Positions 52,901 through 64,000 of a stretch of 64,000 nt of DNA are shown here, one piece after another. The position numbers were made by a program, and so were the translations under genes. Numbering within the stretch: position 1 is the first letter of the stretch; every line of letters begins with the position of its first letter. The notes under the pieces were generated by a model, which saw only the letters and a list, made by a program, of their open reading frames with translations, made no database searches and was not told the origin of the DNA. This stretch comes from Allacma fusca (lineage: Eukaryota; Arthropoda; Collembola; Symphypleona; Sminthuridae), in assembly GCA_947179485.1 (NCBI GenBank), contig OX359250.1, positions 30,204,654-30,268,653 of the forward strand, given 5' to 3'.

Positions 52901-54803
52901 ACACTCGTTGGACAATTACAGGGAGTGCGAAGTTTTAAAATTCATTTTTTGTTCGTGCCATCACGGTCGTTTTATAGTTTTAAGATACTTTTGGCTAATA
53001 GGATATGCAATTTTTTATCGTGGTTTCTCTCTCTCTTTCCACTGCTGATGTGTGCGTATATACTTCAAGCATAACGTGTACTACAGGATTACAGGGACTG
53101 ATAATCAGTCGTAGAAGCTTCAGCTTGTATGTGGGAATCACACTTTACTAAAATTGCGACTCGTGTAAATCCACACAGGAACATTTAGACACTTCCCAAG
53201 AACGTATAATGAACCGGTGTCATTGAAAGTGGGGGGCATTAAGTGTTGATACGGAAATTAGAGGCTTTTGTATTTACATTTTTGGGGGAGTATTACCAAA
53301 CCGACTTTTGGAAGCAATTGTTGAGTTTGTTATTTACTGTACATTAGAATTTATTGAGCTCGTTATTGAGCTCATTTATTTTTACACAAGGTGAATTTCA
53401 AACCATAAAGCTTCCTGAAATACAATAGAATTTGAGAGGGTCAATGTCATTATTGTCCGACGGATTTATTCCGGGCTTTGGTTTTTAAACAACATTGAAC
53501 AATCCGAGGTAAGGACTGCTACTTTGTCTGACATTATTTGCAGCTGTAATTAATTAAAACCATTCATTAACGAACCTACTTACTTTACAACAGTTAGTTG
53601 GTGAGAAGCAGCATTTACTTGTTATTGCAATTGTATATACTACTCATGTGATATTGTCACTTGTTACTGTTACCACGTTACCAGTAAAGTCATTTCATGA
53701 CAAATTAATATTTCAGAACCTTATTCGTGTTGCACTGGAAACAATTCTGATCCAGTGTAGCTATGGAGGTATGGACGTGCTGCATGTCGAATTTATTTTT
53801 CTCCAGAGTACAACATTATGTAATATTTTTGATTGAGGGCAGACGATCATATCGGAATAAAAAACATGATGTATACTAGTTTAATTTCATGACGTGACTT
53901 TTCCATGAAAAAAACGCTAATCGCGTCTCTCTATTTGCTCTCTTCGCTATGGAGTAGTCTGTCCTTTTGATTGTCAGCTATCGGAAGGTTTAACTTGGTA
54001 TTTTGTGAGGTGATGGTGTGTCTATTATATTATGGTTGTTGTCGTCTAGCAAGTTAAAAGTGAGATAACAATTTAAACATTGTAAGTTTGAGGAGCTATG
54101 TTACCATGCATCATAATATCTGTTGACATTTGGTACTTAAATTGTGTTTCTGAATATGGTTGTGCTCATTACGAGTAGGGAATGAACTCCAGAGGTTTGA
54201 AAGTTTCGAAAAATAATAACTACTTACTTTACACATATTAAATAGAACGGATAGGTATGTGTCTTTGTTGCTATGAAAAAAATACTAGCTAAAAGCTGAC
54301 AATGAGCTATATTGTATATTGTTAGGTCAATAGTAATGCTGCTCAACAAAATTGGCTTTGACCATTGTTGAAACTTTTAGCCTCATAAGTAGGAGTCCGT
54401 CAAGTTAGCCGGAGTTACAATACATGCCATTGAAATACATACATTTGAGCCGGAGTACCATAATCAACAGTCTTTGAGGGAATGAGACTTACGACTTGAT
54501 ATAAAGACTGATAACGGCAAATAAATTAACTAGGTGTTTCTAATTCTGACCTAACAATGGTACGCACTGTCCGGTGTAACCTTAGTATTACTTTCAGTAT
54601 TCTCATTACAGCTCACGGCACAACGATGTTTTGAACTCAATCTTCGAACTAATATTAAGTAAAAAATATAAAAAAGTATAAATAATAAGTCTGTAAATTA
54701 ATAGCAATCTTGATTCACGACTTACATGATTGTTACAGATACTAGAAGCTCAAAAACGTATTAAAATTATTCTGTGCTAAATAGTTGTGAATACGCTTAG
54801 TTA
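52901..54803. other. Unique sequence without a supported gene
   Basis: Only short open frames occur on either strand (for example + 53648-53836), without recognisable motifs, splice context or unusual composition. I see no tandem repeat. The motif AGCCGGAGT occurs twice near 54407 and 54450, which I cannot interpret. Confidence 0.4.
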
Positions 54804-55010
54804 TTAGATGTAGGGTTTGTCGATTTTTAAATGACACGGCGTAAATGGCAAATTAGGCAGGCATATATTTGGCAGGCATTTAGGGCATTTATTCACATGG
54901 GGATCAAATGATTTTTTATGCCATTCTGGCAGAATTGGCATATAATATGTTTTTCCCTGGCAAAACTGGCATAAATTAGCCATGCTCATGGAACGCTCTT
55001 TTTCCGCCAT
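54804..55010 (-). CDS. Small hypothetical ORF with CxxC pairs
   Basis: A 68-codon frame starts at a true ATG (55008-55010) in a reasonable initiation context (AACAATAATGG) and ends at TAA. The product has two CxxC pairs (CQFC near residue 14, CPKC near residue 42) and further Cys, so it could in principle form a small zinc-binding fold. However, the DNA is built from repeated GGCA/TGCC blocks (TCTGGCAGAATTGGCATA and CCTGGCAAAACTGGCATA), which alone would generate the Cys-Pro pattern. I do not recognise the family, and a chance ORF in a short internal repeat is a real alternative. Confidence 0.2.
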   Translation of the reverse strand: MAEKERSMSMANLCQFCQGKTYYMPILPEWHKKSFDPHVNKCPKCLPNICLPNLPFTPCHLKIDKPYI

Positions 55011-55593
55011 TATTGTTGCTTGTTCCGACAGTGGCTAATTTTAAAATATTTAAAACTTGCAAAGTAGCGGTTTCTCAATTCTTAAAGTACAGTAGCAAGT
55101 CAAAACGCATCTCATTGCATATTGAGCTTGGTGTGAACATACACTATTATTTTAATTTTCTATGGCTTATCGCTATCTGGTCTTACTGACATTTATATGG
55201 CAACCAAAACGAGGAGACGACTGGAAAAGAAAATCTGGTTGCACCATACCGAAATTTAGGGTTCAAATTTTGGAACGTGTTATGTAAAATGTCATTTTTA
55301 TAGTAACGTTCAAAGAAAACACAGTTAAATGCATGATGCAGACATCCACGTGCAAGCAAGCTTCAGTGGATATTAAAAGACAATTCCGTAAAGATTCTGT
55401 GAATTCAAAATTCCGGGGGTGCCTTCCGGGGATCTAGCTCGTCTAAAAATTAATACTTGTATTACACAAAAAATACTGCAATTTATAAGTTCAAATCCCA
55501 AGTTCATCCTCTCGTGGGCCCTATTATAACTAACCGTATGCATGATAGATAAAAAGAAACATTTAATAGTTCAGCCGTACTCAAAAGATGTTG
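55011..55593. other. Non-coding flank downstream of the transposase gene
   Basis: No exon is supported. This is the region where the 3' end of the minus-strand transposon should lie, but I could not identify a terminal inverted repeat matching the other side. Confidence 0.4.
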
Positions 55594-55603: not shown

Positions 55604-56130
55604 TCATTTTTTCCCACTGTAAGTGCCCCTAACTCTGTGAAAATTGCGATTAAGGGCTTGCTTCTGACGCCGATCTTTCTCCTTCTGCTTTCCCACGGTA
55701 GATTTACGCTTTTGTTGAACACCCAACTTCCTTCTCTCCTTCCTAGTCAAGGCAGGTTCTGTCGGTTCTTCCAAGAACATTTGAATAAAATAATTTTCAA
55801 TACAGTTATTTTGCTAAACGAAGAGCACATAATCAATAAATCACAAAGTACAAGTACAGTTGGTATTGTAATTAGCTATAACAAATCATGGTACTTAATT
55901 CTGCCGAAAGGTTTATTGAGAAGTGTTACAACCTGTGTAAGTCGATGTGGTTCATCCAAGGTTTCCATCTCTCCAGGATCTGTAGCATTATCGACTGCAA
56001 CACGACGGTTCCCTTCTTCCGGATCAATCTGCCATGGTTTCAATGGCGTAGCTGGAGCACTGCGGAAGTCCCAGTCAGCTGCGTTATTCCCCCATAGTAC
56101 GTCTTTATGGATTTCTCCATCGTAAATTGG
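55604..56130 (-). other. Exons 13-14: C-terminal tail
   Basis: Exon 13 (56130-55933) has a T-rich acceptor and encodes an acidic, Trp-containing segment (for example ADWDF, KPWQID). The CAG/GTTGTA donor is at a codon boundary. Exon 14 (55813-55604) is in phase and ends in a strongly basic segment (TRKERRKLG, QQKRKS, KEKDRRQK) that could be a nuclear localisation signal, then TGA. The + strand open frames across this stretch are shadows of these exons. Confidence 0.6.
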
Positions 56131-59100
56131 CTAAAAAATTTGAAAATTTACATAGTTATATTATTTAAGCAATATAGAGTTTGTATTACCATTCTGATAT
56201 TGTTTTACAGCTAACACAATGTTGAAAATTGTTGCAAAACGTGCTTACAACTTTATAGCCATCCAAAAAATGCGAATATTGGATCGCTCCTACGTGGATA
56301 GTTTTGCACAGGGTGCAAGCAGTTTTGGTATCCATACTACAAATAAAAATTGCAATGATCAGAAACACGAAATCATTATATCCAGACGTGTAACTTTATA
56401 AAAGTGCAATGTATCAGCCATATCAACAAAATGTGTACTAAATTATTAAAATCGAGCATTTTAAATTATAAGCATGACAGCAACAACCCAATATAGAGCC
56501 AGCAAACAACTGTAAATATAAAAACAATAATACTTGGTTGGTGTTTCAAATACGTAGCGAACACTTGCAAATTAACAGTTATAAAATGATGCACCGAAGC
56601 AAATGATATTAATAGCAGCTTTATTACCACAACCTGCACTACCATGTACAGAAATATAGGTTGCCATTCTAAACACGATCCAAATATATTACAACCTTGA
56701 TTGCAGATATTTTCCCACATAAAATGAAATATAAAGTAGTTATTACTATGGGCACACAACCGTTGTAAACATATGGATTAGAAAATTGCAATAACTATAG
56801 TCAGAAAAAGTAAATGCTAATACTACCACAAGAACTACAAAGTATAAATTTCAGAACTTACAGCAAAACAAGCTGAGATACCAAGCCAAAATATTATATT
56901 ACAAGGTCTACATTTACAAAACACGGACAGTATTTCATATTCGATATTTTAAATCAGATTCTATTCCAAACTCCACCTTAAACATTTAGTTCTTAAACTA
57001 CACCAATTTATATAAAACAAACAACATATTCAAAACAAGCCCAACGTTGTTTTAGGACATTCAGCAAGCAGCAACTTTTTAACTGACTAGATTTACTGTG
57101 TACCAGCAGGTACTTACACCAACGTAGTCATTAAACAGCCCGGGTAAATACTTCATCTGTCCTTCCATGCCGTCATATCTAATAGGTTGTTCATTATGCA
57201 AAATTTGAAGGACGAAATGTCCTCCTGTGTTTAACGTATAACCTACAAGAGAATATACAGTATCAAATAATTTTATTCTGAGTGAAATATCGCCAATCCT
57301 CTTTCCCAGTCCATTCTCGGATACCATAGTTCCGCTTGTAAACTCAAAAACAATTATTGGGGACGGGATTTCAGGTTGTCTATAGCTAACACTCTTGTTG
57401 TTTCGACAACCCCGACAGATAGAACCTAGAAAAGTTGTTGTCTCATTTAATCGGTGCACGATTAATTCAATACCGGGACCACACAAGGCTATTATAGGAA
57501 AACTGCAAATCCAATACAATTTATTAGTATTTTCAAAACAACTAGTCATTAGAAATAGTTGTTTCATACCTCCTGAAATTCTCATAATCACATGTACTGC
57601 AAGAAGTCACTTGCACGTATTCTTCAAACAGTCCATAAAGAGCAGCAAGTCCATATTCCTCCTCACCATTCCACATGTTATTCACAGCAGGTTTGAGTTG
57701 CAAATGGCGATCAGTCAGAGATAACCACTTCTGTTTCGCTAGATTTTGATATCCTTCTCTTAACAACTGAATTGCATCAACAATAAATTTCCTACCTGTG
57801 GAACCATTGACTAAGTAATTACGAAACTGAGGGTTAGTCTCGTATAGGTACAGATTCATCGTCATAACGTTATCGAAAGAGCACGTGTTTACAAAGAGAA
57901 AATCGCCATCATCTCGAGCTTTTGAACCCCAACTGTAAAAAATCAAAGTGTTTAAGGAACCCTAAAATATGTGCCAATACAAGCAATATTCACTAACGGA
58001 ATGAATGGCAGCGTCTCAAAAATCGATGCAACCAATTTCACTTTGGGCACACGTTTGCCTTTCTTCTGCCACGTTTCTGTGAGAAGACATGAGCTTTCCT
58101 GCATTGGAAGGACTGCAACATTTACAGGATTTTCACATGTCTTGTAAGTGGATACAGTCGGTGTGATGTTCTTCCTATTTCGTCCAACTCTACGCTGTTT
58201 ATTAACACCTTCCAGTTTTCCTAAGTAACGGATGTAATCAGCTAAAAACCGTGTACAACGTCCTGTACACAAATATGTTTAGAATGTATTCATCTATTGC
58301 TAAACACATAGAGATCCAGGTAAATATTTTAAATCCAATTAAATATATAAAGTAAAAATGACTGATACCTTCTACAACATTTTTAGCTTGATGAACGTAT
58401 CTTGCTAATGTCAGCTTCCCATCCTTACACTGCTCATGCTGTTTCACAACTTTATTCCAGTTTTCGACAGGTTCTTGGGTGTCGTTACGGCGGTGGTCTC
58501 CGCGCAATTCAAACAGTATGTGTGTAAGCATAGGAGTATAAGGCAACATGTGTGTGCACAGATACGTGACGAAATCCTCGTTGTGAAAAATATTTGGTGA
58601 TTCAGCAGACGTGACTTGGTTTTTTGATAGCTCACCTTCAACAATAACGCGCAAATCGTTATAAAATCTTCCAAACGATGTTCCACGACAAACGGTTTTA
58701 TCTGACAGATGATTACCCAGATAACTTTGATGAACGATCTCGTGTTCTGCAAAACAACATAACTAAGAAATTTTCCTGCAAAGGTAATATAAAACGTGAG
58801 GTTTATAACTCTTACCAAGTTGCAGCAGTTTTGGTGGAGCCGATTGAAGTGTGGATAACACTTTTGTAACAAGTGAGCTTGCTGTCGGTGACAAACATAA
58901 CACAAATATCTTCCGAACGTAATAGTTGGCAGTGTGAATATCGTACGAATACTGATACCGATTGAAAAGCTTCTTTATGATTTTTACTTGGTCGTCCTCC
59001 TTCTGCACGTAAACCTCTTCTAATTTTGCAATGATTGCTTGTATTACATGCATGCGGCAAACGTGATGATTGATTTTAGAGGGCTTTTGGATCTTGAAAA

Positions 59101-61688
59101 GTTCCTCCCAGCAAAGGTTGAGATAAGAGGACGTACTATGCCCATTCCAGAATGTGTGGATGACTGCTGAGATGGTTGCTAAACAAAAATCGGTTTCAAT
59201 ACGTGTCATCCATCCAGATGGGCCACTTTTGAAGTACGTATCGACTCTGCAAGTAACAAGTGATAGGTTAATAACAAACTTGTACAACAGAATAAAATAG
59301 ACGTTACACTCTTACGTGGTTCGAAACGCTGCCAAACATTGGCCTATTGAGTCAGTATTCTGGGAATTGCTCAAGAATTCACAAACTGCCAGCGAATTCG
59401 AATTATTTACTGGGTTTGTAATTACCACTGCGTACAACAAGATTTGACTGCCCCCAAATTCTCATTAAGGTGCCGAACGACACCTCCTGTCGCATCTACG
59501 TGTATTACAGTATGTTGTTTGCGTTGCTTGAATGTCTTTAAAACTTCCATTTGCTTTGCGGACATCATAACAACGTGCAAAGGTTTTACACTATACCCAA
59601 TTACAAATTTTGCTAAATGTGCATCGGTGTAAAGCCGGCGATGTAGATCTACAGTAGGCAAACAGTCAGAGTCGTGTTCCTTCAGCATCTGAAAGCAAAT
59701 GTATATTTCACAAAACTTAATCGAAATAATGGAATAAATGTATTAGTTACCTCATGTCTGACTTGTCGTAGTACTTGGCCACGTGGTACCCCAGTAAAGT
59801 TACCGCAAGTTTGAGGCAAATCGTCAGCTGTGTTAGCTATATCTGTAGCAACCGCATCTGCCTGTCTAAATTGCAAGGATTCCTTAACAGCTGCTCGATT
59901 TTCAGCTTGCAGTTTATTACTGCAAACTCTAAGCGGATGATGGTTGATTGTGCCATGACATCTGCAAAAATTTTACGTTGAGGTAATACAAGTACAAATA
60001 ACATTATAACGAAATACGCGAATGTACTTACACGACTTTAAAGACAACTTTAGATTTGTCGAAATTAAAATTCCCCGTGATCCTTATTCTATCCCAGCAG
60101 TCAGGCTTATGTGTGCAATAGTCATCTAAAACATACAAGTTGCCTCGTTTACCAGTTGAAACGTCCTGACGTTTACAGATTGGAAAACAGCAAGGATTCA
60201 CTTTGTTGAACTTCTTTCTTAATATGATGTCCAAACAGCCTTGACGCATATTAAATACAGTTTTGCCATTGCGATTTCGACTTTCAACGTATTGGTCCCA
60301 AACTTTCCTCTTTATGGTAAACTGAAAACTCTTAGGAATAACTACAGTTCTGCTGTTAGCCTCAACTTTCACCGAGTCGCCTTGATCTAAAATAAAGTCA
60401 AGATGTTCAAGTCAGAACATACTCCCTTCAAATGAGACGCGATGTAGTACCTGTATATTTGGTTCCAAAGTTATCAAAATCTGCGTCCTTTTCTTCAGCT
60501 TTCTCGAAAACATCCAACTCCACAGCTAGATCTCCAACTTCATGTTCGTCTCCGCAAATGGCAATTGATGTCTTTGCTGCTGGGGATTTCTGGTCTTTGT
60601 GATCGGTAATGAGCGAGTCGTCGCTGGCGGTCATTTGTGATTGGGTAACCGCAAAGTCAACCTTCCTACTGATATCTGCACAAAAATTGTATTTGCTTGA
60701 AACTGGTTTACTATAAATGGATCTTCAATGAACCTGATTATAACCTTTAAGTGGTTTCCGGCTAAGATTAAATTTTCGTGCAGAAGCCAATACACCTGCA
60801 CTTCCTTCCCAAATTTCGGTTGGCTGTGTACAATCTGCGAGTGTCTTAGGGACATTTCCAGCTGCAGTGTTTATATCTACATGAACAGCATTCTCTGAAC
60901 ATACGACGTTGTCCCCGTCGTCAAGGGTAGCAAGTGAGTGATCATCTCCGTGTTGGTCCATTGTAATGTCACTGATGTTAGTGATACCTACACAACCATG
61001 AAAACACTATACAAAAAGGTTTGATTTACATTCTCGATCTCAATGTAAGTTGTAATGCTTGTCGATACTTACTATCAACAGTTTCCAAAAACAGTGATGG
61101 ATAGCGGATCCAAGAGTTGGCATTGCATGTAGGGCATTTGAAGTTGTCGTCCTTCGCAGCCTTCCTTCTATCAACCCGAATGCACAAGCAGTGGTACCAT
61201 TGCACATGACCCACATTCAACTATGTCCCCTGACGTTGATCCAAGACAAATGCAGTGAACTGATCTGCTGGTCGTAGGAGTAGAACACGCGGGAGGTGGA
61301 TCCAAACGCACCAAAGGAGTACCATGCGTATTCAAAAACGCAGCCTATGAAAACACAATCATTAAAACTCGACACACCGACTGTTAGCATTGAAAAGGAC
61401 GAAGGCACTGACTTTTAAAGCGGATTGCTCCCTACGAAACCAACTACGCAAAAACTTAATATCTCTCTCCAGCTGCTTCGGATAAAACTCAGACAAAACT
61501 TGGCCCCACAAATCAGATTTTCTGTTGTAACCAGCTTTCTCCCAACGGTCAAAACTCTCACAAATCCTGTGCATAACTGCTGTAATTTCACCAGTCGTAT
61601 ACCCGCTCAACCTAGCTCCTTTAAGACAAATACTCCCACGCCTCTTCAGGCCTAAACTAACGTTGCCCACTAGGTCGCTGTGGTCCAT
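55604..61688 (-). CDS. MULE-like transposase with PHD finger and USP-like protease domain (14 exons)
   Basis: Exons on the minus strand, all with GT-AG borders and matching phases: 61688-61413, 61344-61073, 60987-60745, 60675-60451, 60386-60032, 59961-59751, 59688-59316, 59246-58816, 58746-58369, 58262-57998, 57932-57570, 57502-57118, 56130-55933 and 55813-55604. The product has about 1,390 residues. Domain order: Trp-containing N-terminus (1-92), PHD finger (about 120-165), acidic linker (about 185-340), WRKY/FLYWCH-like zinc finger (about 420-475), DDE core (about 560-895), USP-like domain (about 1020-1250), acidic and basic tail. The likely role is DNA cleavage and joining in the nucleus; the role of the protease-like part is unknown. 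Introns are 64-80 bp except the twelfth (987 bp). The reading frame changes once in exon 2 and once in exon 7. The first ATG follows TTTCAG, so a 5' untranslated exon may exist further up. Confidence 0.65.
56131..57117 (-). other. Long intron 12 of the transposase gene
   Basis: At 987 bp it is more than ten times the length of the other introns in the gene. It has a strong donor (GTAAGT) and a T-rich acceptor. Open stretches inside, such as 56466-56759, are hydrophobic and lack motifs. I see no clear insertion with inverted repeats or target duplications. Confidence 0.5.
57118..58262 (-). other. Exons 10-12: compact USP-like cysteine protease domain
   Basis: Exon 10 (58262-57998) is a basic linker. 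In exon 11 (57932-57570) the block FVNTCSFDN resembles the Cys box of ubiquitin-specific proteases (N-x-x-x-C), with Cys at 57881-57883. Two CxxC pairs follow (CSTC at the end of exon 11, CRGC in exon 12), as in the USP zinc-finger subdomain. Exon 12 (57502-57118) then has YSLVGYTLNTGGHF, with His at 57217-57219, and RYDGM, with Asp at 57172-57174, matching the USP His box and the following YD motif. The Cys-first order argues against the Ulp1/C48 proteases found in some plant MULEs. At about 230 residues it is shorter than usual USPs. OTU-like folds are an alternative. Confidence 0.5.
58369..59688 (-). other. Exons 7-9: DDE transposase core of MULE type
   Basis: First Asp: HVDATGG at 59494-59496. 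Second Asp: RIETDFCLATISAVI at 59189-59191, as in the MULE consensus where this Asp leads a helix. C-x2-H: HHVCRMHVIQAI, with Cys at 59057-59059 and His at 59048-59050, typical of MULE-type insertions. Glu: PVENWNKVVK at 58463-58465, matching the V-E-N-x-N-x-x-K pattern. Exons are 59688-59316, 59246-58816 and 58746-58369. In exon 7 the frame changes near 59465 (a run of G after AATTT), best explained by one missing base; downstream of it the frame is again open and ends at a phase-compatible donor. Confidence 0.7.
59751..60386 (-). other. Exons 5-6: WRKY/FLYWCH-like zinc finger region
   Basis: Across the junction of exon 5 (60386-60032) and exon 6 (59961-59751) the ligand pattern is YC-x5-C followed by a beta-rich stretch (IRITGNF, KVVFKVV) and then CHGTINHH. 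The C-x5-C...H-x-H layout matches the WRKY-GCM1/FLYWCH class of DNA-binding zinc fingers, which is known to sit just before the DDE domain in many MULE transposases. An extra Cys-rich piece (PCCFPIC) lies upstream. Exon 6 goes on into a helical, Ala/Gln-rich segment that joins the transposase core. Confidence 0.55.
60451..60987 (-). other. Exons 3-4: acidic, low-complexity linker
   Basis: The two exons (60987-60745 and 60675-60451) join in phase and encode about 155 residues rich in Asp, Glu, Ser and Thr, for example DDGDNVV and EKAEEKDADFDNF. No domain is visible. It probably links the PHD finger to the zinc-finger region. Confidence 0.6.
61125..61254 (-). other. PHD finger (in exon 2), frame change inside
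   Basis: The order of zinc ligands is C-x-C (HCIC), about 13 residues, C-x2-C (ECGSC), WYH, C (HCLC), about 17 residues, C-x2-C (KCPTC). This is the C4HC3 pattern with the aromatic residue just before the His that is typical of PHD fingers, which often read histone H3 tails. Reading from ECGSC to WYHC requires a change of frame at about 61195-61200. The spacing usual for PHD fingers fits best with two bases missing. It may be decay or a sequence error. Known PHD-bearing transposases use such fingers for chromatin targeting; that role here is inferred. Confidence 0.7.
61413..61688 (-). other. Exon 1: N-terminal region with three spaced tryptophans
   Basis: The exon begins with ATG and encodes 92 residues, ending at AAA with a GTCAGT donor, phase 0. 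The segment from about residue 28 to 90 is rich in charged and aromatic residues with Trp in DRWEKAG, DLWGQVLS and RSWFRRE (spacings of about 13 and 22). That rhythm recalls Myb/SANT-type helices, but I cannot call the domain securely. A DNA-binding role would suit the N-terminus of a transposase. This is inference. Confidence 0.55.
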
Positions 61689-61709: not shown

Positions 61710-64000
61710 TCAAAGATATTCATAATTCGGTGCCAATTGGAAAGATCATAGCCAAGGAACTCAAATAGAAATTCATAGGTTTTTAAAAAATTCGTAATTA
61801 AACAAATCTGGCCAAAACTTATGAAGGCTAGAGGAATCGACCATAGGAATTCTGATTCTGCAGTCAGAATTGAGTTCGGCCAACTGGTTTCAAAATAAAA
61901 ACGGGGGTGTCCTCTTTTACCCCCATATTCAAGAAATTAAAAGATTTTTTAAAAATTCATTATTCGCCTAATACGGCCAAAATTTATGAAGGCGAGAGGA
62001 ATCGACCATTGGGATTCTGATTCCGAAGTCAGAATTGAGTTCGGCCAACTGGTTTTGAAATAAAAATAGGGGTGACCTTATTTACCCCCATATTCCAGAA
62101 ATTCAAAGATTTTTTAAAAATTCATTCTTCGCCAAATCCGGCCAAAAGTTAAGAAGGCCAGAGTAATCTACCATAGGGATTCTGATTCTAAAGTCAGAAT
62201 TGAGTTCGGCCAACTGGTTTCGGAAAAAAATAGGGTGTCCTCATTTACCCCTATATTCCAGAAATTCAAAGAATTTTTTAAAATTCATCATTCGCCAAAT
62301 ACGGCCAAAATTTATGAAGGCGAGAGGATTCGACCATGGTGATTCTGATTCTGAAGTCAGAATTGAGTTCGGCTAACTGGTTTCGAAATGAAAACGGGGG
62401 TGTTCTCATTTACCCCCATATTCCAGAATTTCAAAGATTTTTTTAGAATTCATTATTCGCCAAATCTGGCCAAAAGTTAAAAAGACGAAAGAAATCTACC
62501 ATAGGGATTCTGTTTCTGAAGTCACAATTGAGTTCGGCCAACTGGTTTCGAAATGAAAACGGGGGTGTTCTCATTTACCCCCATATTCAAGAATTTCAAA
62601 GATTTTTTAAAAATTCATTATTCGCCAAATCTGGCCAAAATTTTTAAAGGCAAGAGGAAATGACCATGGGGATTCTGATTCTAAAGTCACAATTGAGGTC
62701 GGCCAACTGGTTTCGAAATAAAAACGGGGGTGTCCTCATTTACCCCCATATTCCAGAAATTCAAAGATTTTTTAAAAATTCATTATTCGCCAAATCCGGC
62801 CAAAAGTTAAGAAGGCGAGAGTAATCTACCATAGGGATTCTGATTCTGAAGTCAGAATTGAGTTCGGCTAACTGATTTCGAAATGAAAACGGGGGTGTTC
62901 TCATTTACCCCCATATTCAAGAATTTCAAAGATTTTTTTAGAATTCATTATTCGCCAAATCTGGCCAAAATTTAAAAGCCGAAAGGAATTTTACAATATG
63001 GATTCTGTTTCTGAAGTCACAATTGAGTTCGGCCAACTGGTTTCGAAATAAAAACGGGGGAGTTTTTATTTACCCCCATATTCCAGAATTTTAAAAAAAT
63101 TTTAAAAATTCGTTTTTATCCAAATCCGGCCAAAATTTTTGAAGGCAACAGGAAATGACCATGGGGATTCTGATTCTGAAGTCACAACTGAGGTCGGCCA
63201 ACTGGTTTCGAAATAAAAACGGGGGGTTTTTATTTACCCCCATATTCCAGAATTTTAAAAAAAAATTAAAAATTCGTTTTTATCCAAATCCGGCCAAAAT
63301 TTTTGAAGGCAACAGGAAATGACCATGGGGATTCTGATTCTGAAGTCACAATTGAGGTCGGCCAACTGGTTTCAAAATAAAAACGGGGGTGTCTTCATTT
63401 ACCCTCATATTCCCGAAATTCAAAGATTTTTTAAAAATTCATTATTCGCCGAATACGGCCAAAATTTATGAAGGCGAGAGGAATCGACCATGGGGATTCT
63501 GATTCCGAAGTCAGAATTGAGTTCGGCCAACAAGTTTCGAAATAAAATAGGGGTGACCTCATTTACCCCCATATTCCAGAAATTCAAAGATTTTTTTTTA
63601 ATTCATTCTTCGCCAAATCTGGCCAAAAGTTAAGAAGGCGAGAGTAATCTACCATGGGGATTCTGATTCCGAAGTCAGAATTGAGTTCCGCCAACTGATT
63701 TCGGAAAAAAATAGGGGTGTCCTTATTTACCCCTATATTCCAGAATTTCAAAGATTTTTTAAAATTCGTTTTTATCCAAATCCGGCCAAAATTTATGAAG
63801 GCGAGAGGAAATGACCATGGGGATTCTGATTCTAAAGTCACAATTGAGGTCGGCCAACTGGTTTCGAAATTAAAACGGGGGTGTTCTCATTTACCCGCAT
63901 ATTCCAGAAATTCAAAGATTTTTTAAAAATTCTTTATTCGCCGAATACGGCCAAAAATTTTGAAGGCAAGAGGAAATGACCATGGGGATTCTGATTATAA
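61710..64000. repeat. 165-bp tandem array (14 units seen), continues past the right edge
   Basis: Using the GGCCAAAA landmark, units lie at 61810, 61975, 62140, 62303, 62468, 62633, 62798, 62963, 63128, 63292, 63457, 63621, 63784 and 63949. The spacing is nearly always 165 bp, with some 163 or 164. Each unit carries ATTCGCCAAAT, GGCCAAAA, GATTCTGATTCTGAAGTC, GGCCAACTGGTTTCGAAAT, GGGGGTG, TTTACCCCCATATTCC and a T/A run. Units fall into at least three types by the segment before GGGATTCTG (AATCGACCAT, TAATCTACCAT, AAATGACCAT). The first unit, at about 61710-61800, is diverged. Because 165 is 55 codons, spurious 55-residue-periodic frames appear on both strands. Confidence 0.95.

Follow-up and report, generated by a model that had tools for sequence, protein, structure and literature searches.

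Background

Rehavkus transposons are DNA elements related to the Mutator-like elements (MULEs). The passages that describe them report very few known elements, found in Arthropoda and Annelida, that combine a 9-bp target-site duplication (TSD), terminal inverted repeats (TIRs) of 26–400 bp, a PHD finger and a minisatellite placed before the 3' TIR (PMC6446971). For the Tribolium element, the pertinent excerpt of a second source places the minisatellite, with a unit of 164 bp, in both inverted termini (PMC10218199). Here we describe an element of this general appearance in a 64,000-nucleotide stretch of the 393-Mb genome of the collembolan Allacma fusca (hereafter the window; G000:C9:30204654-30268653). 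Its transposase gene joins a PHD finger and a putative D-D-E core to a C-terminal domain with the predicted fold of ubiquitin-specific proteases (USPs).

Proteases acting on ubiquitin-like proteins have been noted on other transposons. In the relevant sections of one report, Ginger1 and some Mutator transposases carry Ulp1 or OTU proteases, a PHD finger occurs in one Ginger1 family, and a T. vaginalis transposase_11 protein is fused to Peptidase C19 (PMC2836005). As excerpted, these fusions resemble the present one in having a C-terminal cysteine protease of the ubiquitin/SUMO type, or C19 on a transposase, but they involve other transposase superfamilies, and Ulp1 and OTU are other protease families. 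A functional precedent for a transposon-encoded deubiquitinase (DUB) is provided by the VTD enzymes of Helentrons, which are experimentally active; in the same partial account, an aromatic "gatekeeper" motif is absent, among known DUBs, only from VTDs and ZUFSP (PMC9741609). The VTDs are described there as belonging to a rolling-circle element and as having an Asp-x-His active site, whereas in the domain considered here the His precedes the Asp by 15 residues (in the sequence from locus L033).

The element and its relation to Rehavkus

At the DNA level the exon 11 region has 29 matches in the genome, and 15 related copies were retrieved for comparison. All five copies in which both ends could be read are flanked by perfect 9-bp duplications (ATCGGTAAC, CTTAGTTTC, ACCACCATA, ATGTTCACA and CGAGGTTGA) and measure 9183–13408 bp. 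Their TIRs are imperfect, with CCGTCA first at the 5' end, 22 matches in the outer 27 bp and patchy similarity to about 80 bp, a length within the range given for Rehavkus. A 165-bp minisatellite, common to all 15 copies, separates the gene from the 5' terminus; no such array turned up on the 3' side of the element. In the window copy the array runs at least 7.8 kb past the end of the window, through two further 4-kb pieces and still continuing, and the outer 5' end was not reached within these pieces. Since the 5' end of this copy is outside the window, inverted repeats inside the window gave no TIR pair. The minisatellite of the window copy thus amounts to at least about 10 kb (61767–64000 plus loci L053 and L054), implying an element longer than the five fully read copies; it looks like a satellite expansion originating from the transposon.

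The PHD finger, the 9-bp TSD, the TIRs, the MULE-related D-D-E core and the size of about 10 kb are shared with Rehavkus (Rehavkus-1_TC of Tribolium castaneum and Rehavkus-1_HR) as portrayed in the available passages (PMC6446971, PMC10218199), and the minisatellite unit of 165 bp compares with 164 bp in the excerpt on Tribolium. One point tells against the assignment: the minisatellite lies 5' of the gene only, whereas the excerpted descriptions place it before the 3' TIR or in both termini. Because of this difference, and because the comparison was made by published description and not by sequence, we call the element no more than "Rehavkus-like": it resembles a MULE-related DNA transposon of that group.

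The preliminary description of the locus had spoken of a MULE-type transposase, and the resemblance to MULE-related Rehavkus bears this out in part. The Pfam MULE model PF10551, by contrast, is unmatched: not one of its 63 genomic matches falls within 1.5 kb of the matches to the D-D-E region (hereafter DDE matches), of which 150 were listed, a single one lying 2.5 kb from a DDE-only match, and an hmmscan of the L011 and L017 proteins and of two L034 fragments gave no PF10551 match. This absence near DDE matches agrees with a position of Rehavkus as outgroup or sister of the MULEs. A D-D-E core with C-x2-H also occurs in Phantom and other animal MULEs. According to the source passages on them, these elements likewise have TSDs of 8–10 bp, some with Foldback-like complex ends, but they differ in matching PF10551 and in their set of zinc fingers, and no protease is mentioned there for Phantom.

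Structure of the transposase gene and its copies

Mapped onto the related intact copy L011, the gene (ORF1; ORF, open reading frame) occupies positions 61688–57079 of the minus strand in 12 coding exons (Table 1), with GT/AG at every intron border in the window copy, and encodes a transposase of roughly 1270 amino acids. The exons lie on the minus strand where the preliminary description had put them, but the gene in the window is not intact. Exon 2, with the PHD finger, and exon 7, with the first Asp, are 2 nt and 1 nt shorter, respectively, than their counterparts in L011, and because of these two frameshifts the window copy is probably inactive. The USP-like exons remain in open frame.

Once spliced, seven of the 15 related copies (L011, L012, L016, L017, L018, L019 and L022) can be read without interruption from their first ATG to a single terminal stop; in L016–L019 and L022 the exon 3 acceptor was mapped slightly off, the other intron borders being AG/GT. 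The remaining eight are truncated, rearranged, interrupted or incompletely mappable. At the protein level L011 and L012 are 99.9% identical, L016–L019 are 99.3–99.8% identical among themselves, and the two groups share about 72%, a distance over which the exon–intron structure is kept while exons 3–4 are weakly conserved. Among the matches listed, twelve copies of the L016 group score alike at 352 bits, and one more scores 356. Near-identical intact copies and this shared score point to recent activity of the element.

The PHD finger noted in the preliminary description is matched by Pfam PF00628 above cut-off in L011 (E = 2.6e-6) and L017 (E = 1.5e-6). A second finger proposed there, of WRKY/FLYWCH type, found no such support: the Cys/His-rich region of exons 5–6 gave no FLYWCH or WRKY-GCM1 Pfam match at E ≤ 1 in either protein and resembles these domains by eye only. 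It probably binds DNA.

As for the D-D-E core with C-x2-H, the motifs HVDATGG, RIETDF and PVENWN together with CRMH are indeed present in the window copy, and their generalized forms H[VLIF]DATG, R[IV]ETDF, C-R-x-H and P[VA]E.WN recur in the distant copies L034, L055, L056 and L060. The two Asp motifs and the Glu motif were together in a single open frame at none of the 17 loci scanned. An RNase H fold for the core, and a role in cutting and joining DNA, would fit these motifs and, for the latter, the 9-bp duplications. Structure prediction lends the core no help, since the L018 fragment spanning the two Asp motifs, modelled with ten other alignment rows, yielded a weak model (predicted local distance difference test, pLDDT, 47.7; predicted template-modelling score, pTM, 0.28).

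A USP-like domain at the C-terminus

The elements of a protease that had been reported from the sequence, namely a Cys box (NTCSFDN), CxxC pairs and a GGHF...RYDG box, with the Cys ahead of the His and Asp, are all found in the window copy. As a single protein the region gave no Pfam match. Conservation was assessed in 17 sequences, 14 from loci outside the window clade and three from within it, picked for a near-complete domain and thus not a random choice among the 67 loci described below. Pairwise identity across them falls to a minimum of 14%, with a median of 23%; nevertheless the Cys, the Asp following it (C-x-x-D), three finger Cys and the His are invariant. The putative triad Asp is D in 15 sequences and N in two (from the L039 and L055 lineages), always in the order Cys-His-Asp/Asn; Asn in place of the catalytic Asp is also tolerated in USPs. 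All 17 have F or Y directly after the His, against a background of 10% for these two amino acids, and we take this residue to be the "gatekeeper" aromatic. NTC at the active Cys occurs in 13 of the 17 sequences.

Substitution patterns show that the domain is under purifying selection. For the pairs L011/L016, L011/L022 and L016/L022, the ratio of nonsynonymous to synonymous substitution rates (dN/dS) in the USP-like domain is 0.21, 0.17 and 0.15 by the NG86 method and 0.16, 0.16 and 0.13 by YN00, and the NG86 values for the linker of exons 3–4 are 0.58, 0.86 and 0.60.

A confident AlphaFold model of the single-exon domain from L033, based on an alignment (A1) of eleven copies in which one frame holds all or almost all of the domain, has a pLDDT of 84.2 and a pTM of 0.86. 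Foldseek comparison of this model with the PDB returned 157 matches at E ≤ 0.001, the best of them to USP15 (2.6e-9) and others to USP47 (2.5e-8), USP18 (4.2e-8) and USPL1 (4.8e-8), and in a comparison with viral models the top three matches are annotated as ubiquitin carboxyl-terminal hydrolases. In the model the first helix begins with the Cys, while one strand begins with the His and the next ends with the Asp, which is the usual USP arrangement. The predicted structure thus upholds the proposal of a USP-like protease fused to a PHD-bearing D-D-E transposase, a proposal that the lack of any match to a cysteine protease fold would have contradicted. With USPs (C19) and USPL1 (C98) the domain shares the predicted fold, the order of the triad, the finger cysteines and, in most sequences, NTC at the active Cys.

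Several observations weigh against this assignment. The Foldseek matches have moderate template-modelling (TM) scores (query-normalised 0.38–0.53 among the 50 matches listed) and high root-mean-square deviations, and the protein that was folded, L033, is 29% identical to the L011 domain and is not the window protein. The profile comparison suggested in the preliminary description reached the Pfam UCH model PF00443 below its threshold: among eleven members, which are highly diverged, two matched at E ≤ 1 (L038, E = 0.0039; L035, E = 0.28), with a best score of 17.3 bits for a curated cut-off of 23.9. The 73 genomic matches of the same model all lie more than 3 kb from the USP-like loci. When the PDB was searched by sequence, no USP came up for the L011 domain, for L038 or for two alignment profiles (A1, introduced above, and A4); the matches that were returned (best E = 0.043, to BRCA1; also TFIIH and a Cas12a) are chance-like and were dismissed. 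No Pfam match of the domain to C48 (Ulp1) was obtained, and the residue order Cys-His-Asp is also unlike that of Ulp1, in which the His and Asp precede the Cys. Overall, the domain has a predicted USP-like fold and probably a USP-like function, and it is not classifiable as a member of Pfam UCH.

The preliminary description had further held that this architecture is not a described family. The transposon superfamily is in fact already described, while the passages on Rehavkus at hand do not mention a USP-like domain (PMC6446971, PMC10218199). No report of such a domain in Rehavkus was found in the open-access literature that our searches covered.

Proposed function and alternatives

In the interpretation that we consider reasonably probable, the element in the window is a damaged copy of a cut-and-paste transposon that is Rehavkus-like and autonomous, and its transposase carries a C-terminal USP-fold protease working in cis against ubiquitin or ubiquitin-like tags. 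After binding to the transposon ends and to the target, the transposase would cut the DNA and integrate the element with duplication of 9 bp, and the protease would most likely strip ubiquitin or a ubiquitin-like protein near the site where the transposase acts. Deubiquitination of the transposase itself might let it escape degradation; alternatively, tags might be removed from chromatin reached via the PHD finger. The tag could sit on the transposase, on a histone or on a repair factor. The data show the gene structure, the marks of transposition, the recurrence of the fusion in many divergent copies, the predicted fold, the conserved triad and the purifying selection; we infer catalytic activity, a substrate of this kind and a benefit to transposition.

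That the two halves form one protein is supported by their joint recurrence. A protein search with the USP-like domain found 136 places; the 115 that reach E ≤ 1e-3 fall in 67 loci. At least 48 of these 67 loci have a DDE match within 3 kb, among the DDE matches listed, and a USP match at E ≤ 1e-3 accompanies at least 48 of the 63 DDE loci, both counts being lower bounds, with 105 of 161 candidates scored. At least two "DDE-only" loci, L056 and L057, do hold at least part of the USP-like domain. In the distant copies L034, L055, L056 and L060 the domain lies directly downstream of the Glu motif. Were transposase and USP two adjacent genes mistakenly joined, loci with one half alone would be explained, and 19 of the 67 USP loci indeed lack a DDE match within 3 kb among those listed, which counts against the fusion; 15 of the 63 DDE loci lack a USP match at E ≤ 1e-3. 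The spliced frame, on the other hand, is open across all 12 exons in the seven intact copies, and the segment that links core and protease has homologues in the different lineages; in L034 one ORF (1469–2602) contains it together with the USP part. Phase and recurrence rule out an adjacent host USP gene, and we regard the two-gene explanation as the least probable of those considered here. It is hardly more credible that the protease cleaves its own transposase into functional pieces and does not act on ubiquitin. A long single polypeptide with a basic linker between core and protease would suit such an arrangement, but the USP fold with its finger cysteines and the aromatic residue after the His suggest ubiquitin-like tails as the substrate.

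The nature of the tag, and whether it is cleaved at all, leave more room for other views. The domain might be a SUMO (or other ubiquitin-like) isopeptidase of the USPL1 type, acting on SUMO-dependent silencing of transposons. USPL1 (7zjv) has the highest target-normalised TM-score (0.50) among the 50 matches listed, and five of the 17 sequences show C-x-x-D-C at the active Cys, which resembles USPL1; yet ubiquitin USPs match equally well or better by E-value, and there is no match at E ≤ 1 to the Pfam USPL1 family (PF15499), so that this remains an unlikely, if serious, alternative. More doubtful still, and in our estimate improbable, is that the domain has little or no catalytic activity and serves as a binding module, recruiting chromatin or partners that bear ubiquitin or SUMO. 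Inactive DUB-like relatives of transposon-encoded enzymes are described for VTDs in insects in the available part of that study (PMC9741609), but here the Cys, the His and the Asp/Asn are kept in every selected sequence despite the low identity among them.

Returning to a USP-fold protease acting in cis on ubiquitin or a ubiquitin-like tag, the fusion would, if true, be a further independent acquisition, Ulp1, OTU and VTD proteases being already present on unrelated eukaryotic transposons, and it would strengthen the case for ubiquitin or SUMO removal as a general need of transposons. Elements of this kind would then have a means of their own to act against protein tagging by the host. It would also give Rehavkus a target for study at the protein level, and the several near-identical intact copies in the genome make the question directly testable. 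A wider conjecture, which we put forward tentatively and think unlikely to hold in full, is that Rehavkus as a class consists of PHD-DDE-USP fusions, with a protease of USP fold, strongly diverged and representing a new family of peptidases, that is guided by the PHD finger, erases ubiquitin or SUMO from chromatin or the transpososome, opens targets and escapes silencing. In viral contigs, 22 pattern matches yielded no confirmed relatives.

Features of the window and its surroundings

Table 1. Features of the transposon copy in the window (positions count from the first letter of the window)
Feature	Position	Strand	Basis
ORF1 exon 1; start ATG, N-terminal region	61413..61688	-	alignment to intact L011
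ORF1 exon 2; PHD finger, frameshifted here	61073..61344	-	Pfam PHD in L011/L017; length compared with L011
ORF1 exons 3-4 (60987-60745, 60675-60451); fast-evolving linker	60451..60987	-	protein identity 38-40%, L011 against L016/L022
ORF1 exons 5-6 (60386-60032, 59961-59751); conserved Cys/His-rich region	59751..60386	-	NG86 dN/dS 0.10-0.22, three pairs
ORF1 exon 7; first putative catalytic Asp (HVDATGG, 59496-59494), frameshifted here	59316..59688	-	motif and L011 alignment
ORF1 exon 8; second putative Asp (RIETDF), C-x2-H (Cys 59059-59057)	58816..59246	-	motif and L011 alignment
ORF1 exon 9; putative third acidic residue (PVENWN)	58369..58746	-	motif and L011 alignment
ORF1 exon 10; conserved basic linker, DDE core to USP-like domain	57998..58262	-	comparison among copies
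ORF1 exon 11; USP-like part 1, putative catalytic Cys 57883-57881, first CxxC	57570..57932	-	alignments; L033 fold
ORF1 exon 12; USP-like part 2, second CxxC, putative His 57219-57217 and Asp 57174-57172, stop 57081-57079	57079..57502	-	alignments
ORF2, three exons (56335-56249, 56130-55930, 55771-55604)	55604..56335	-	L011 alignment
3' terminal inverted repeat region; outer end about 54393	54393..54480		comparison of copies
165-bp minisatellite, upstream of gene	61767..64000		TRF (Tandem Repeats Finder)

The three exons downstream of exon 12 had been taken as the end of the same protein. We read them as a second, separate ORF (ORF2), because they are out of phase with exon 12 and ORF1 has a stop of its own. 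That stop follows "STCWY", a segment that aligns as coding sequence with SNCWY or SSSWY in distant relatives; that no joining phase was found, together with the conserved stop, rules out ORF2 as the C-terminus of ORF1. In L011 the ORF2 product has about 151 amino acids, includes a pair of cysteines and is basic at its C-terminus, and in the window copy its last acceptor is not AG. A search with ORF2 gave 99 matches, four of them weak (E > 0.02), and a USP match lies within 5 kb at 30 of the 35 ORF2 loci among those listed, from which we take ORF2 to belong with the window clade and not to be a general part of the element.

Elsewhere in the genome, three of the UCH matches (G000:C1:74366787, 74372706 and 74378625) have an identical score and a spacing of 5.9 kb, and represent either a host USP gene present as three tandem copies or an assembly repeat. 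Near the transposon, positions 1–49153 of the window are filled by a continuous AT-rich tandem satellite with a 26-bp unit (consensus TACAAATTGTATTTTATGCACTTTAA; about 1900 copies, about 20% GC). Within the 3' region of the element, a block of about 600 bp (54811–55410) has at least 30 further copies in the genome, most of them 76–85% identical, and is perhaps an older, nested non-autonomous element.

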